IMG/VR virus record: IMGVR_UViG_3300009180_000124
Location: 1-33,264 of that record
Source of the DNA: a virus
Strand: one strand, 5' to 3'
Length of the DNA stretch: 33,264 bases
Part shown: one piece after another, positions 5,042-10,673 of the stretch
How the letters are laid out: the number at the start of each line of letters is the position of its first letter
How positions within the stretch are numbered: position 1 is the stretch's first letter
Made by a program: the position numbers and the translations under genes
The notes under the pieces: model-generated
Seen by the model: the letters and a program-made list of their open reading frames with translations, nothing else
Told to the model about the DNA's origin: nothing
The model's database searches: none

Positions 5042-5884
5042 ATGTTCGGTAAACAGCCGATAAGCTCTGGGCCTTTTGTAGAAAGGGGTATTGTTAAGTG
5101 GGGGGATTCCATTACGGAACCTTTTATTATTGACGACATCCCTAGTACAGTTGCGTCTTTTAATAACAACATTACAGAACCTATAACCATAGCCGATACT
5201 GTAGATGGACTGCGCACACTTTTTGCCGTTGTTGTTGAAAACGCATCTTTCCTAGATAGCTCGTCTGTTTTAGCCGCTTTTGCAACTGCAATTGTTGAGG
5301 CTGTTAATTTAGCGGATTCTAGCGTAGTTATTCGCACCCACAACTCAGACCTTACAGAAGCCCTAACCCTAGCAGATACCCCTACCACCACAGCCGTATT
5401 TGCCAGCGTGGTTTTAGAGAACGTTAACCTAGCAGACTCTCAAACTGTAATAGCTAGTTTTGCTGTGATTGTATCTGAGGGTAGTGTTTTAGTGGACACC
5501 CAGTCAGTTCTAGCGGCTTTTGTATCCAGTCTGTCTGAAGCAATTACCCTAGACGACGCCAGCATAGCAATACGCATCCACAACTCAGATGCAGCCGAAA
5601 TTATAACCTTAGCAGACGCCCAGACGGTTATAGCGGCATTTAGTGCTTTAGTAGCGGAAAACGTAGCGATTGCAGATACTCCTGTAGTAATAGCCTCATT
5701 TAATAGTAAAATAGCTGAAAATTTGATATTATTGGACGATCCATTCCCTCGTGGTTGGTACAAAATTAATGATGGTCAAACAACAGCTTGGGCTTCGGTA
5801 AATAATTCAGATGCAAGTACTTGGGGAAATATTGATAATGCACAAACAGTTGTTTGGACTAAAGTTAACAATAGCTACCCATAA
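5042..5884 (+). CDS. virion structural protein made of ten 20-residue tandem repeats
   Basis: A 280-residue protein. Residues 26-225 are ten back-to-back repeats of exactly 20 residues, each opening with Glu and carrying a central hydrophobic-(A/D)-D motif (for example ENVNLADSQTVIASFAVIVS). A partial eleventh unit (ENLILLDD) leads to a Trp-rich C-terminus (residues 236-280) with repeated W...I/VN(D/N) units, a type seen in phage tail and neck proteins. It starts 3 bases after the preceding stop with only a weak ribosome site, so coupling is likely. An elongated beta-solenoid-like tail component is my inference; the repeat architecture is directly visible. Confidence 0.8.
   Translation: MFGKQPISSGPFVERGIVKWGDSITEPFIIDDIPSTVASFNNNITEPITIADTVDGLRTLFAVVVENASFLDSSSVLAAFATAIVEAVNLADSSVVIRTHNSDLTEALTLADTPTTTAVFASVVLENVNLADSQTVIASFAVIVSEGSVLVDTQSVLAAFVSSLSEAITLDDASIAIRIHNSDAAEIITLADAQTVIAAFSALVAENVAIADTPVVIASFNSKIAENLILLDDPFPRGWYKINDGQTTAWASVNNSDASTWGNIDNAQTVVWTKVNNSYP
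5117..5716 (+). repeat. 10 x 60-bp tandem coding repeat with a 240-bp superperiod
   Basis: The ten protein repeats keep exact 60-bp register with no insertion or deletion. Units 3-6 (5237-5476) and 7-10 (5477-5716) form two four-unit blocks: the variants SVLAAF, IR(T/I)HNSD, then AVF/AAF and VIASF recur in the same order, so CGCACCCA at 5333 recurs as CGCATCCA at 5573. DNA identity is diverged, suggesting an old duplication kept by selection on repeat length. Confidence 0.9.
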
Positions 5885-5893
5885 AGGATAAAC

Positions 5894-6721
5894 ATGACAA
5901 CTTTTTCAACAGCATTAAAGCTGGAGCTACCTGGCGACGGGCAACAGTCTGGAACTTGGGGGCAAACAACCAATAAGAACTTTGGAACCCTTGTAGAGCA
6001 GGCAATTACTGGTGTGCGTTCCATTTCCATGATTAATGCAGACTATACGCTTACCACCCTTAATGGAACCTCAGATGAAGCCCGTAACGCTGTAATTATC
6101 GCTACAGGCACAAATTCCAGTATTTGGAAAATTATTTGCCCATTAGTTAATAAGCTTTATGTTATTTCTAACCGGACTACTGGTGGGTTTTCTATTACTA
6201 TTGGCGGGGTAACTGGCACTTCTGTATCCATCTCCAATGGTGTAACAGCTCAGGTTTACTGTGATGGAACCAATTTCTATGCATCTCAGACTGGTTCTGC
6301 GGGCGACTTTGGAATTAGTGGTAATTTAACAACAAACTTTAACTCCACAACGGTTGGCAATAGCTTGGTTGGAGGAACGTTTTCTGTAACTGGAACTTCA
6401 ACTTTTACTGGGGCTGTAGCATTAAGTGGTGGCGCAACCTCTACTACTGTTACCTTACCAGACGCTACAACTAAAGTAGCTACAACAGCTTTTGTTGCAA
6501 ATGCATTAGCCGCCTGGGGTACAAGCGTTGCAATTACTGGCGGAACAATTACTGGAAACTATGGCTTAAATGCTTCTGGTTTATTTAATTCTGGCGGATG
6601 GAATGTAACTCCTAGCGGTACAAAACTATACTTTGCTTATAATGGAACTAATGTTGGATCTTTAGATTCTTCAGGCAACTTCCGCGCACTAGGAAACGTA
6701 TCAGCGTATGCTACCCCATAA
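5894..6721 (+). CDS. phage tail fibre-like structural protein
   Basis: A 275-residue protein starting at ATG after AAAGGATAAAC. The N-terminus (TFSTALKLELPGDGQQSGTW, then GQTTNKNFG) is a common phage structural signature. The C-terminal half has a TLPDATTKVATTAFVANAL segment, typical of tail fibres where it precedes the distal domain. Composition is Thr/Ser/Gly-rich without Cys clusters or membrane segments. It is the last fibre-like gene before the radical SAM gene. A tail fibre or baseplate-associated role is likely; its position in the virion is unknown. Confidence 0.8.
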   Translation: MTTFSTALKLELPGDGQQSGTWGQTTNKNFGTLVEQAITGVRSISMINADYTLTTLNGTSDEARNAVIIATGTNSSIWKIICPLVNKLYVISNRTTGGFSITIGGVTGTSVSISNGVTAQVYCDGTNFYASQTGSAGDFGISGNLTTNFNSTTVGNSLVGGTFSVTGTSTFTGAVALSGGATSTTVTLPDATTKVATTAFVANALAAWGTSVAITGGTITGNYGLNASGLFNSGGWNVTPSGTKLYFAYNGTNVGSLDSSGNFRALGNVSAYATP

Positions 6722-6729
6722 TTGGAGAA

Positions 6730-8172
6730 ATGATGCAATTTGAAATACATGCAGAAAAGAGTTCTAACGATAAAAAGATATTCTTTTACGACAACCAAAC
6801 AAACGTTTTAAAGAGCGAAGATGGTCTTGTATTCAAGTTTCCTGAAACAAACAAAGCATTACAACTTCCGTATGTTTCGTTTGATAAAGACACTCCACTT
6901 AAGAAGTCAAGAAACATCCAATTGCTTAAAATACAAATGGGGTTATCTTGCAACTACTCGTGCGATTATTGCTCGCAAAAGTTCGTTGAGCGTTCAGAAA
7001 CTACTACGGCCAAAGATATTGCTCCCTTTTTGGAAAAGATGAATGTCTTAGAATTTTCTGAAAAAGACGGATTAAAAGTAGAGTTTTGGGGCGGTGAACC
7101 ACTTGTATATTGGAAGACTCTCAAGCCATTAGCAGAAGCTGTTCGTGAGAAGTTTGCTGATTGGGAAGTAAAGCCACAATTTTCCATTATTACCAATGGA
7201 TCTATTTTTACCGAAGAGATTATTGACTGGTTGATGATGATGGACTTTTCAGTATCCATCTCCCATGACGGCCCAGGACAATCAGTTCGTGGCCCAGATC
7301 CATTTGATGATGAAGAAAAAAAGAAACTTATCCTTGGTTTTTATCGCATGATGACTCGATTAAAAAAGGGAATCAGTTTTAATCCAATGCTCAGCGCAAA
7401 AAACAAAAGCCGTAAAGCAATTTATGACTGGTTTGTTAAGCTTACCGGCGATACGCATATTCACCTTGGAGAAGGTAGTATTGTGGATGCTTATGATGAA
7501 GATGGATTAACCAATTCATTGCAGTCATTCCAAGAGCATTTTGATTTCCGTCGCCAAGCGTTTTCAGATTTTCATGTAACTGATGGAAACATTGGTTTTG
7601 TTGGTCAAATTCAAAAGATTGATGAATTTACAAATGCCGTATTAAATCAGGACAGCGCAGACTATCTGGGTCAAAAGTGCGGTATGGACAACGAGCATGT
7701 ACTTGCTGTTGACTTACATGGTAATGTACTAACATGTCAGAATGTATCAGCGGTAGAGGTATCCAAGAATGGGGAATCTCATTTAGGTGGCAACCTTGAT
7801 GATTACGAGAACGTAGCCATTAAGACCTCTACTCACTGGTCTAATCGTGAAGAATGTCCATCTTGTCCAGTATTGCATTTGTGCAAAGGTGCTTGCATGT
7901 TTTTGGACAACAAGTATTGGAAAACATCTTGCGCAAACGCATACTCTGATAATGTAGCTTTGTTTGCCTTGTCAATTAATAAGATGACTGGCTACATTCC
8001 AACATTAATTAAGGCAGAGGGTTTACCCTTAGATCGTCAAGACATTTTTGGTACACACTATACACACGTTGAGAAGCCAGTAAAGAAAATTATTCCAATT
8101 AAAGTAATTAGTGAAAAAGTTGGGTCTATTGACAATATTGAAGTATATGGAAAATCAAAGGTGGCAGTATGA
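6730..8172 (+). CDS. radical SAM/SPASM domain enzyme (candidate peptide maturase)
   Basis: A 480-residue radical SAM enzyme. The [4Fe-4S] SAM-binding motif C74-x3-C78-x2-C81 is present, followed by GGEP (121-124), ITNGS (154-158) and SISHDGPG (176-183), all expected in the TIM-barrel core. Residues 317-401 match the seven-cysteine SPASM motif in full: C317, G331-x4-C336, C376-x2-C379-x5-C385-x3-C389, gap, C401, so two auxiliary clusters are expected. This is the architecture of anaerobic sulfatase maturases and of enzymes making thioether or C-C bonds in ribosomal peptides. Two starts are possible; GGAG at 6724 fits the second ATG (6733) better. Its stop overlaps the ATG of the Asn/Cys-rich protein (ATGA, 8169-8172), suggesting that protein is the substrate. 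The family is certain; the substrate is inferred. Confidence 0.93.
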   Translation: MMQFEIHAEKSSNDKKIFFYDNQTNVLKSEDGLVFKFPETNKALQLPYVSFDKDTPLKKSRNIQLLKIQMGLSCNYSCDYCSQKFVERSETTTAKDIAPFLEKMNVLEFSEKDGLKVEFWGGEPLVYWKTLKPLAEAVREKFADWEVKPQFSIITNGSIFTEEIIDWLMMMDFSVSISHDGPGQSVRGPDPFDDEEKKKLILGFYRMMTRLKKGISFNPMLSAKNKSRKAIYDWFVKLTGDTHIHLGEGSIVDAYDEDGLTNSLQSFQEHFDFRRQAFSDFHVTDGNIGFVGQIQKIDEFTNAVLNQDSADYLGQKCGMDNEHVLAVDLHGNVLTCQNVSAVEVSKNGESHLGGNLDDYENVAIKTSTHWSNREECPSCPVLHLCKGACMFLDNKYWKTSCANAYSDNVALFALSINKMTGYIPTLIKAEGLPLDRQDIFGTHYTHVEKPVKKIIPIKVISEKVGSIDNIEVYGKSKVAV

Positions 8173-9065
8173 CATTACCAAGTGGCGGGACAATTGCAGT
8201 TAGCAATATTAATCAAGAGATTGGACAATCTCCATCATACTCATCAGATTTGAGTTTTTTGAATGGTTTAATTGTTTCAGTTCAACGCCCCGCTACACCA
8301 AATTTGTCAGCATTCTATTCATTAACATATTTTCAAAACACTACTCAGGGCAACTGTAGTAATGGTAACTGCACTAGCAACTGTAACTGCGGAAACATTC
8401 AATGCACAAATTGTTATATTGCTGGCACTGTAAATTGCACAAACTGCGATTCTCAACAATGGTTGCAAAACAACTGTAATTGCGCGTGTACTTATAACTG
8501 CACTACTGGCTTAGTAAGCTATAACTGTAACTGTGCATGTAATTGCTCTAAGATCATCTGCGCTAAGCTTTATGAGTTTGGCTTAATGGATTCCAATATT
8601 TGGGCAGCAGATCAGGCATATGGTCGTTGGTTACGCCAAAAAGATAAAGCTGTATATCGTGGCTATGTACGCTGGGCTAGAATCGTTACTGCATGGATGG
8701 ATGGTAAAGGCCCTGATTATATGTTCTGGATTAAGGACGATAAGAAGCGTTCTTTAGCTCAGAAAGAAGCTATTACCAAAATGGCTATTGATATTGGAAC
8801 TCCTTGGTCTGAGCATATGGCTTGGCTCATGGGCGCGCGTCCACAAGATAATATGCGTGGAAACATTCTAATGACTATTGGTAAACCAATTTGCCGTTTT
8901 GTGGATATGTTGCCTAGAAACAACAAACGCAATCGCAAGCATCATATAGCAACGCTATATATCATGTGGGCATTATTTTTCCTTAGTAGCTGGACTGCTA
9001 GCGGAATTGTAATTATTAACAAATTTGTTACTAAAACTAAAAGCTTTATTTTAAAGGTGGCTTAA
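8169..9065 (+). CDS. Asn/Cys-repeat virion-like protein with C-terminal membrane helix (candidate modified substrate)
   Basis: A 298-residue four-part protein. Residues 1-55 (LPSGGTIAVSNINQEIGQ...) match a short N-terminal domain common in phage tail/structural proteins. Residues 62-126 are an Asn/Cys-rich segment with 16 cysteines, 13 of them preceded by Asn (NCNCGN, NCNCAC, NCNCACNC). Residues 127-248 start with KIIC131 and form a helical domain (DSNIWAADQAYGRWL..., TPWSEHMAWL, GKPICRF) that resembles the C-terminal region of other phage Cys-rich proteins. Residues about 261-284 are a hydrophobic membrane helix preceded by a basic RNNKRNRKHH stretch. It starts at ATGA, coupled to the radical SAM gene. 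I infer that the Asn-Cys segment is modified by the neighbouring enzymes. A plain disulfide- or metal-binding structural protein is the alternative. Confidence 0.85.
   Translation: MTLPSGGTIAVSNINQEIGQSPSYSSDLSFLNGLIVSVQRPATPNLSAFYSLTYFQNTTQGNCSNGNCTSNCNCGNIQCTNCYIAGTVNCTNCDSQQWLQNNCNCACTYNCTTGLVSYNCNCACNCSKIICAKLYEFGLMDSNIWAADQAYGRWLRQKDKAVYRGYVRWARIVTAWMDGKGPDYMFWIKDDKKRSLAQKEAITKMAIDIGTPWSEHMAWLMGARPQDNMRGNILMTIGKPICRFVDMLPRNNKRNRKHHIATLYIMWALFFLSSWTASGIVIINKFVTKTKSFILKVA
8352..8546 (+). repeat. degenerate Asn-Cys coding repeat
   Basis: Codons 62-126 of the gene, built from irregular AACTGY units (AACTGTAACTGC and variants). Spacing between NC pairs varies from 0 to about 8 residues, so it is low-complexity rather than a fixed-period repeat. 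Both Cys codons are used, which argues for selection on the protein rather than recent slippage. Confidence 0.85.
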
Positions 9066-9368
9066 ATGATGGATGTTACTGATACCGAACTATATCGTCA
9101 GCATATTGTTCACTACTTTGATACTCAGCTAGGGCATGACATTATTACCCTTTCTGAAAAAGACAAGTTTCGTTTATTTCAGATGTTGACTGATTATGCC
9201 GACATTTTAGAAACTATTTTTCATCCTGGCATTCCAATCTTGGAGCATATTTTAGAAAAGCCTGGATACGCAGCAGCAGCTCATCCACATGAAGGCATTA
9301 ATCACGATCACGAATGCGAGATTATTTGCCAATACGATCAGTGGAAAGCCAGTGTTCAAACAGCTTAA
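9066..9368 (+). CDS. small protein of unknown function in the radical SAM cassette
   Basis: A 100-residue protein whose ATG follows the previous stop with no gap (TAAATG), behind an AAGGTGG ribosome site; a second ATG lies one codon later. The first ~70 residues look helical and amphipathic (ELYRQHIVHYFD, KDKFRLFQMLTDYADILETIF). The C-terminal 30 residues carry a His/Cys/acid cluster (AHPHEGINHDHECEIIC) that could bind a metal. It lies between the candidate substrate and two hydroxylases. A chaperone, leader-binding or metal-delivery role is possible, but no family is recognised. Its 3' end overlaps the next gene. Confidence 0.7.
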   Translation: MMDVTDTELYRQHIVHYFDTQLGHDIITLSEKDKFRLFQMLTDYADILETIFHPGIPILEHILEKPGYAAAAHPHEGINHDHECEIICQYDQWKASVQTA

Positions 9369-9891
9369 CGGCACATTTGACGAAGTAAAGTATCAAGCTT
9401 TAGAAGAGCAGATATCTTACGGGTCAATGATTGACAATGAATTTCGTGGAATTCAATACCGCAATGTAGGCAACATTGTTGGTCTGGATTTTGCAAGCGT
9501 TATTCCAGAAGAATATCGCAAGCATTTTGTACTGTCTGTTATGCGCATAAATACACATGTGCCACCCCATACAGATAGCTGTATTAAGGTTAGCATAAAT
9601 GCGTATATAAAAACAGAAGCTTGTAGGACTGTATTTTATGATGTCAATCCTGATGCAAAACCGTATCAAATTAATAATCAAACCAATGGTGTGCTATACG
9701 AATACCGTGATCTAAAGCCAGTGGATTCATTTATTTCCAATCCTGGTGAGACATGGGTGTTAGATGTTACTAAGCCACATTCAGTAGAGCCATTAACTAA
9801 GTTTGACGAGCGTATTGCTATTGCATATGGCACGGCAGATTTTACTTATGATGAAGTATGCAAAATGCTAAAACAAACGGAAAGCCTTTAA
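9352..9891 (+). CDS. putative Fe(II)/2-oxoglutarate-dependent oxygenase (aspartyl/asparaginyl hydroxylase-like)
   Basis: A 179-residue protein from the GTG at 9352. The alternative ATG at 9289 would add 21 residues, has no ribosome site and would overlap the previous gene by 80 bases. The double-stranded beta-helix facial triad is visible: H73-T-D75 in PPHTDSCIKVSINAYI, then NPGETWVLDVTKPHSV with H143, and R154 in DERIAIAYG as the likely 2-oxoglutarate anchor. The order and spacing match the aspartyl/asparaginyl beta-hydroxylase type (PF05118-like). It ends at TAATG, overlapping a second hydroxylase. Expected chemistry is O2-dependent hydroxylation; the Asn-rich neighbour is the obvious but untested target. 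Confidence 0.75.
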   Translation: MFKQLNGTFDEVKYQALEEQISYGSMIDNEFRGIQYRNVGNIVGLDFASVIPEEYRKHFVLSVMRINTHVPPHTDSCIKVSINAYIKTEACRTVFYDVNPDAKPYQINNQTNGVLYEYRDLKPVDSFISNPGETWVLDVTKPHSVEPLTKFDERIAIAYGTADFTYDEVCKMLKQTESL

Positions 9892-10673
9892 TGTTTTATG
9901 AAGAATTGAACTGCTTAGATTTTGATGTATTTAAGTTGCGTGGTCATTTATACACGGATGTATTTCCATTGGGAAAGCAAATTATTCAGGGCGAAGAATA
10001 TGAAACAGCGTCTTATAACGGTTTTGGCGGTTGGTCTATTACTTCCCGTACTGGTGATTGGCGAGATGGCTGGGAGTTCTTTCAGAATGATGAAGGCGAA
10101 GCAATGGAAGTTTATTTTCCAAAAAACGACAACAATTACAAAGCACTAAAGTTTTTTAATATTGCCCATTCAATGGAACATAAGAACCCTACCCAAGCCT
10201 ATGTTGGTGAAATTGCTCGTGTTATAGATCAAATAGAAGCATTAGGGTTAACACCTAGAAGAGTTCGTGTTAGTTGTTTGAAAGCAGGATCTAAGTCTTT
10301 AGTCCACAAGGATGGTGATGAAAGCGAATACATGGCTCGTATTCATATTCCAATTATCACAAACTCAAAGTGCGTATTCATTTGCGACGGAATAAATTTA
10401 CACATGGAGGCTGGTAAGGCTTATATGGCATGGGTAAACAAATGGCATCAGATCCGCAATGACTCAGATGAGGATCGTTACCATATTATTATGGATGCAT
10501 ATGACACCAAAGGCGTATCTAAGGGGTTCAAATATGAAGGTGACATTAGCCAACTAGAAGCTCATGCAGAATCAATGCGCAAAGAAATTGACGCCTCAGT
10601 ATTAACTATTGAAGAAGCCAAAAGATTTGAGGCTGTACGCCAGTCTTTTGTAACCAATAAAGCAAAAAAATGA
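9891..10673 (+). CDS. aspartyl/asparaginyl beta-hydroxylase family Fe(II)/2-oxoglutarate oxygenase
   Basis: A 260-residue protein starting at the ATG of TAATG with GGAAAG upstream; an in-frame ATG at 9858 would lie inside the preceding gene and is disfavoured. The catalytic core is clear: H139-K-D141 (LVHKDGDES), the family's RIHIP strand (R150-I-H152-I-P), then GKAYMAWVNKWHQIRNDS with H186 as third iron ligand and R196 in DEDRYHIIMD for 2-oxoglutarate. The N-terminal ~120 residues appear to be a substrate-binding extension (GFGGWSITSRTGDWRDGW). The C-terminal 50 residues are a charged helix. It is followed by an ATGA overlap with the holin, so it is expressed with the lysis genes. The family is well supported; the substrate is inferred. 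Confidence 0.85.
   Translation: MFYEELNCLDFDVFKLRGHLYTDVFPLGKQIIQGEEYETASYNGFGGWSITSRTGDWRDGWEFFQNDEGEAMEVYFPKNDNNYKALKFFNIAHSMEHKNPTQAYVGEIARVIDQIEALGLTPRRVRVSCLKAGSKSLVHKDGDESEYMARIHIPIITNSKCVFICDGINLHMEAGKAYMAWVNKWHQIRNDSDEDRYHIIMDAYDTKGVSKGFKYEGDISQLEAHAESMRKEIDASVLTIEEAKRFEAVRQSFVTNKAKK

Follow-up and report, generated by a model that had tools for sequence, protein, structure and literature searches.

What is the target of a phage-borne radical S-adenosylmethionine (SAM) enzyme whose gene overlaps that of a protein built around a long run of alternating asparagine and cysteine? This question is raised by a virus record of 33,264 bases (IMG/VR record IMGVR_UViG_3300009180_000124), here called the window over its full length, which contains tail genes, lysis genes and a large virion gene set. 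A first-pass annotation of this DNA described a complete enzyme, with a CX3CX2C motif and a seven-Cys SPASM region, whose gene shares an ATGA overlap with that of a protein containing 13 Asn-Cys pairs within 65 residues (the NC protein), and each of these features was confirmed in the sequence. Searches of IMG/VR viruses that start from either protein recover the other at every locus. With the NC protein as query the enzyme is present at 80 of 80 loci, and with the enzyme as query an NC-rich protein is present at 60 of 60, nearly always adjacent. The pair is carried by many phages of aquatic origin and by prophages. The best overall explanation is probably that the enzyme is a phage-borne maturase, that the adjacent NC protein is its substrate and that a modified virion fibre tip results.

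The gene string comprises the following features, with positions given in the window and lengths in amino acids (aa). Local confidence scores (pLDDT) are those of AF2 structure models.

6730..8172, + strand: radical SAM/SPASM enzyme (PHROG 1802 family), 480 aa, proposed NC-segment maturase, from Pfam, PHROG, TIGR04085 and an AF2 model
6949..6972, + strand: CX3CX2C motif of the radical SAM cluster (C74, C78, C81), invariant in homologue alignments
7678..7932, + strand: SPASM region with seven invariant Cys (317, 336, 376, 379, 385, 389, 401)
8169..8172, + strand: ATGA overlap coupling the enzyme gene and the proposed substrate gene, read directly in the sequence
8169..9065, + strand: NC protein, 298 aa, proposed substrate (virion/fibre protein), with the enzyme near all 80 viral relatives
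8169..8342, + strand: N-terminal folded domain of the NC protein, residues 1-58, common to long and short forms by alignment (pLDDT 80-91 over most)
8352..8546, + strand: NC segment, residues 62-126, 13 NC pairs, proposed modification site (pLDDT <50 over most)
8547..9062, + strand: exchangeable all-helical C-terminal domain of the NC protein, residues 127-298 (pLDDT mostly ~90 or more)
9066..9368, + strand: small conserved 100-aa protein without assigned function, with homologues at the equivalent place in many loci
9289..9891, + strand: hyd1, 2-oxoglutarate (2OG) oxygenase-like protein 1, with an HxD...H...R triad invariant in 80 homologues; under the Pfam cut-off
9858..10673, + strand: hyd2, 2OG oxygenase 2, Asp_Arg_Hydrox family (PF05118, 45.9 bits against a gathering score of 22.6), with H150, D152 and H197 conserved

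Pairing of the enzyme with alternating-cysteine proteins

Two gene orders were observed among the IMG/VR viruses. In the window type, the enzyme is followed by an NC protein with a helical C-terminal domain, a small gene and the hydroxylases, and the second type has a short NC protein (126-160 residues, often ending in CACACAC or glycine) ahead of the enzyme. At locus L061 an S74 chaperone domain follows the NC segment.

The same linkage is found when the search begins from the motif. When IMG/VR was scanned for DNA that encodes NCNCNCxC, at least 120 stretches were recovered, so that totals are lower bounds, and the counts in this paragraph hold among the listed matches. Open reading frames (ORFs) were regarded as plausible if the motif was at the tip, or was internal in an ORF of at least 80 aa. 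For plausible NC ORFs with at least 4.5 kb of downstream sequence, the enzyme is on the same strand in 29 of 29 cases (22 + 5 + 2), and every miss in the plausible classes has less than 4.5 kb downstream. The enzyme is present at 56 of 72 coding loci compared with 1 of 48 controls in which the motif lies outside a plausible ORF, and in that sole control (L295) the motif is at the contig edge. The enzyme is absent from the 12 pattern ORFs shorter than 80 aa with internal runs, which resemble small Cys proteins of unrelated kinds or frames that do not code.

To allow for redundancy, the enzymes were clustered at 70% identity. They form 75 clusters, 50 of which have enough flanking sequence, and an NC run is present on the same strand in 45 of these 50 and on the opposite strand in 2. 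Of the five misses, one (L129) has an NC protein with an interrupted run, and two from L218 have the tail YCTCACSDCSC. Because these three clusters have a broken or non-Asn run, a fair count is that 48 of 50 enzyme clusters have an alternating-Cys partner. A possible third, more divergent branch is represented by proteins of 67-79 aa that carry an NCNCNC-type tail after a DDYST motif (L279 11423-11662, L366 6394-6597 and L286 2432-2635), with several weak and diverse radical SAM matches nearby.

An enzyme profile searched against one genome per species yielded 80 loci, mostly from Pseudomonadota, with a few from metagenome bins labelled Bacteroidetes, Verrucomicrobia or Planctomycetaceae. In Pseudomonadota prophages, distant enzymes (30-60% identity) are found a short way downstream of tail-fibre proteins with terminal NCNCNC tails. 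With phage JWF counted, an alternating-Cys ORF (at least three Xaa-Cys steps) is on the enzyme strand in 69 of 81 loci, usually 1-5 kb upstream; two of these positives (L161 and L171) appear coincidental, and several of the negatives start at the edge of a contig. Minus-strand ORFs at the same loci carry the motif in 16 of 3168 cases. The partner ORFs are long or short, are often tail-fibre-like by their matches to tail-fibre PHROGs, and have NCNCNC ends.

Cultured phages and isolates show the pairing as well. In phage JWF the NC gene, gp28, is located between the tail genes and the enzyme, and its product reads NCNCDCNCNCSC immediately before a Hint domain. The annotation of JWF and the first homology matches had suggested an enzyme lacking an NC partner, an interpretation that was rejected on the basis of this gp28 sequence. 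Achromobacter phage 2-1 is arranged as JWF, with an annotated baseplate hub gene slightly upstream. The genome of Thalassobacter stenotrophicus (G002) encodes NCNCNC at three sites, located on C25 and C32, and every one of them is no more than 0.9 kb from one of three full-length enzyme matches. At the Thalassobacter prophage locus L187, an NC protein of 94 aa (6947-7231) is accompanied by its enzyme (7866-9095) and by two oxygenases (6214-6957 and 7219-7866). The enzyme occurs in only 2 of the 149 genomes in the family group of this species, and the tip-type NC pattern occurs in G002 only.

Some loci carry more than one enzyme or only parts of one. Two different enzymes of the family are close together in L078 (8385-12037), L208 and L218. 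Two matches in G154 (C4:1179931-1180458 and C4:368861-369388) cover model positions 241-425 only, within 197-aa frames, and are either split or degraded enzyme copies or a different protein.

The first-pass annotation had proposed that the enzyme acts on the NC protein, and had named homologous cassettes that consistently carry the enzyme without this protein as evidence that would count against it. The opposite was found, and the searches in both directions, the reverse test and the 48 of 50 clusters strongly support the proposed pairing. Such strict linkage of the two genes argues that the enzyme very probably modifies the NC segment.

A distinct radical SAM/SPASM family

The enzyme scores above the cut-offs for the Radical_SAM superfamily in Pfam (PF04055, 30.7 bits against 29.5) and for SPASM (TIGR04085, 32.8 bits against 27). 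All ten cluster Cys, three from CX3CX2C and seven from SPASM, are invariant across 42 diverse homologues, down to ~30% identity. PHROG 1802 matches residues 49-428 with an E value of 2.9e-62, and also matches the prophage homologues. Many NCBIfam maturase families match, all of them far under cut-off. Closest by sequence is the PapB profile (E 1e-24), yet the score against NF047865 is 87.3 bits where the cut-off is 340. The corresponding values are 55.5 against 425 bits for the SCIFF maturase family of CteB (TIGR03974) and 54.3 against 349 bits for sulfatase maturases (TIGR03942).

Comparison of the AF2 model (pLDDT 91.7) with solved structures gives CteB as the best match (Z 23.6 over residues 1-421), followed by ChlB, the anaerobic sulfatase maturase anSME (Z 20.2) and TigE, with the epimerase EpeE at Z 12.6. 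A Pfam scan of the enzyme gave no match to an RRE, the recognition element of ribosomally synthesized and post-translationally modified peptide (RiPP) enzymes, and the N-terminal strands fall inside the CteB alignment. Because the enzyme is closest to PapB and CteB yet far under their cut-offs, sequence and model together indicate a family of its own that is most like the thioether makers and outside the named maturase families.

The NC segment and its position in fibre proteins

The 65 residues of the NC segment in the window include 16 Asn and 16 Cys. Among 20,000 shuffles the mean was 3.9 NC pairs and the maximum 10, so that the observed 13 was never reached, and chance composition is ruled out by the shuffles together with conservation. 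The segment has no predicted fold. Across 250 distinct alternating XC runs, X is Asn in 67%, Ala in 21% and Asp in 7% of positions (the background for Asn is 4.6%); Cys, not Asn, is the constant element of the repeat. In all three residues the alpha and beta carbons both bear a hydrogen that could be abstracted, as would fit thioethers of the sactionine or ranthionine type.

Where the runs end was examined in 182 distinct tails. No more than 12 residues follow the run in 105 of them, and 61 have the helical domain of the window type. The run meets a Hint-type junction (CFPAGT/CFxAGS), at or just after its end, in 10 tails, two of which were read by eye from the class of other ends, and meets S74 in one. 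Hint and S74 domains cleave themselves. If such cleavage occurs in these proteins, the C-terminus is at or close to the end of most NC runs, and the window form, with a helical domain after the NC segment, is the exception.

The structural role suggested for the NC protein by the first-pass annotation is supported by the tail-fibre, Hint and S74 domains found on NC proteins. For the window protein itself, the description as virion-like agrees with its structural and tail gene neighbours, although scans of Pfam, PHROG and NCBIfam gave no family match; its relatives carry fibre PHROGs, S74 or Hint. The helical C-terminal domain is missing from short forms and is elsewhere replaced by nothing or by S74. 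Comparison with solved structures brought no match better than those usual for helical folds (best Z 5.8), and its matches among viral structures are uncharacterised phage proteins. In phage SynMITS9220M01 (L138, 6669-8519) a domain of this type follows poly-proline and poly-arginine runs in a cyanophage fibre-region protein that has no NC segment, and no enzyme match was found in that phage. Because the domain also occurs on this cyanophage protein, it is a separate module.

Oxygenases and other accessory genes

The window was also said to encode two Asp/Asn-hydroxylase-like oxygenases. Both have the HxD...H...R arrangement, but only hyd2 passes the Asp_Arg_Hydrox cut-off. Residues H94, D96, H164 and R175 of hyd1 are invariant in 80 homologues, and its PF05118 score is 12.1 bits (E 0.18) where 22.6 is needed; H150, D152 and H197 of hyd2, with its arginines, are ~97% conserved. 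The two ORFs, taken from 9289 and 9858, overlap the genes before them, so that the true starts of both proteins may be further in.

The co-occurrence expected across phage contigs holds for the enzyme and NC protein but only partly for the oxygenases, since a recognised 2OG oxygenase is near only 25 of the 50 enzyme clusters. These proteins span the Asp_Arg_Hydrox (window type), 2OG-FeII_Oxy_5-like and Oxy_3 groups. Because they accompany only half of the clusters and belong to several families, they are accessory, and the idea that hydroxylases are an obligatory part was rejected on the same count. Oxygenase labels change many times on a quick tree, which was used solely for the frequency of such changes. 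2OG oxygenases are common in aquatic phages.

In prophages the oxygenases occupy the interval from the NC fibre to the enzyme, accompanied by a conserved protein termed c1 (L155 6620-7447, L143 5137-5964 and L187 5312-6217). This protein has a median length of 287 aa, lies beside the NC fibre and oxygenases at ~50 prophage loci and has no Pfam or PHROG match; a chaperone or fibre partner is possible. In a short-NC phage, a protein of the tryptophan-halogenase family (L073 11594-12739, PF04820, E 6e-93; L072 and L074 are similar) comes after the enzyme and two 2OG oxygenases and before a methyltransferase-like gene. At several short-NC loci the enzyme is followed by a PP-loop protein with an SGGIDS motif and by a cupin (L063 11213-12978, L075 11921-13688, L141 10510-12334). 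These loci include one Polynucleobacter genome and give weak asparagine-synthetase-like matches. Just upstream of the gene string, at 5042-5884, the window encodes a 280-aa protein of degenerate repeats around an ExxxLAD motif, and similar repeat proteins were found upstream of prophage NC fibres.

Their positions suggest that the halogenase, PP-loop and oxygenase proteins may act on the NC segment. For the oxygenases we advance this tentatively, at slightly under even probability.

Proposed mechanism and competing explanations

In the mechanism that we favour, the NC protein would be a fibre-type virion protein in which a folded N-terminal domain is followed by an Asn-Cys segment that is otherwise without structure, and then by an end that can be exchanged. 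The enzyme would take hydrogen from Asn, Ala or Asp of the segment and bond that residue to a Cys sulphur, and the resulting thioether ladder would rigidify the fibre tip. Accessory 2OG oxygenases, or in other lineages possibly a halogenase or PP-loop enzyme, would then decorate the tip, which would become the C-terminus either where the gene stops or where a Hint or S74 domain after it cuts itself off. By analogy with characterized enzymes, the chances that the bond is a thioether appear evenly balanced, and both the hydroxylation of Asn by the oxygenases and a role of the modified tip in receptor binding or stability are guesses of the same kind. The complete scheme is a RiPP-like pathway of Pseudomonadota phages and prophages. 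In this scheme a dedicated radical SAM/SPASM family makes thioether-crosslinked (Asn-Cys)n fibre tips, lineage-specific oxygenases (in some cases a flavin halogenase or PP-loop enzyme) tailor the tip, and self-cleaving domains expose it where needed. As a whole it is plausible but tentative, and falls somewhat short of an even chance.

Several observations weigh against the favoured mechanism. Linkage does not distinguish a crosslink from formylglycine oxidation, epimerisation or other Cys changes, and anSME (Z 20.2) comes close to CteB as a structural match. No RRE or leader was identified. Asn is not required, because Ala makes up 21% of X, and the NC segment of the window is not C-terminal but has the helical domain after it. 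Finally, no NC partner was found for enzyme clusters L203 and L204.

The enzyme could modify the NC segment without making thioethers, through Cys oxidation to formylglycine as in anaerobic sulfatase maturases, epimerisation or another bond. The structural matches to anSME and EpeE, the many sub-threshold maturase families, the annotation of the JWF homologue as a sulfatase maturase and the constancy of Cys beside a variable N/A/D are all consistent with this possibility. We nevertheless consider it rather unlikely, as thioether makers provide both the best profile (PapB) and the best full-length fold (CteB), many clustered Cys suit crosslinking, and the NC segment has no repeated CxPxR-type sulfatase motif. 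A nearly even prospect is that the oxygenases target another part of the fibre, such as the helical domain at the C-terminus, or belong to the general gene stock of aquatic phages and are located near tail genes. A recognised oxygenase accompanies only half of the enzyme clusters, those of prophages are members of PHROG 81 (a family common in phages), a cyanophage protein has the helical domain but no NC segment, and hyd1 and hyd2 are confined to the helical-domain group. However, in many prophages the oxygenases stand in one gene string between NC fibre and enzyme, and their several Pfam groups suggest repeated recruitment.

Two further explanations would deny the NC segment its role as substrate. 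Radical SAM enzymes are diverse in function and phages carry QueE-like ones, whose PHROG is a weak match to the enzyme, so that the target might be a small molecule, host protein or nucleic acid and the enzyme might merely travel with a fibre type. This is highly improbable given the reciprocal, near-perfect linkage over unrelated fibres, gene orders and hosts, and the three enzyme-NC pairs in the single genome G002. It is also very improbable that the NC segment simply forms a tip that binds metal or is rich in disulphides, with the enzyme as an assembly factor. Alternating Cys could bind metal and the segment is unmodelled, but ten invariant cluster Cys in a complete SPASM enzyme imply catalysis.

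Comparison with known systems

We know of no virion protein that has been shown to be matured by a radical SAM enzyme. The open literature, where coverage of subscription journals and preprints was thin, yielded no description of radical SAM virion or tail maturation, phage RiPPs or tail crosslinks of this kind. The apparent novelty lies in the system, in which a radical SAM enzyme would mature virion fibres, whereas the enzyme superfamily is already known. If the favoured mechanism is correct, enzyme-made covalent chemistry would be added to phage receptor-binding or tip structures, PHROG 1802 would gain a function, and a new radical SAM family would have many natural substrates in a simple repeat. 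The system is testable now because culturable phages (JWF and 2-1), isolates (Limnohabitans, Thalassobacter and Polynucleobacter) and 94-aa substrates exist.

Each component has a known counterpart that it resembles in part. Membership in PHROG 1802, named 'radical SAM domain-containing protein', gives neither function nor substrate and makes no mention of the NC partner. Like Asp/Asn beta-hydroxylases, hyd2 passes PF05118 and has conserved catalytic residues, but hyd1 fails, an EGF-like substrate is lacking and other lineages use 2OG-FeII_Oxy_5 or Oxy_3 types. Self-cleaving fibres offer a parallel in the S74 domain of L061 and the Hint domain of JWF gp28, each directly after the NC run; here, however, cleavage would expose an NC tail, and most NC fibres are without such a domain. 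The enzyme shares the SPASM fold with anSME, which acts on Cys of a protein, but it scores far under the sulfatase maturase cut-off, no sulfatase was seen nearby and many Cys are present instead of one.

The ranthipeptide maturases CteB (with SCIFF) and PapB are similar in combining radical SAM and full SPASM domains, in being the best fold and profile matches, and in having Cys-rich substrates encoded adjacent to them. In CX3D motifs, PapB links the Cys to the Asp at its beta carbon (PMC9413430). The NC segment is composed of (N/A/D)C steps, in which only an isolated CTNCD fits the repeated CX3D/E of PapB substrates, and the phage substrate is a proposed virion protein with XC repeats rather than a short peptide with CX3D. 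In its linkage of a maturase to a dedicated, separately encoded substrate nearby, the phage pair nonetheless appears to be organized as RiPP systems are.

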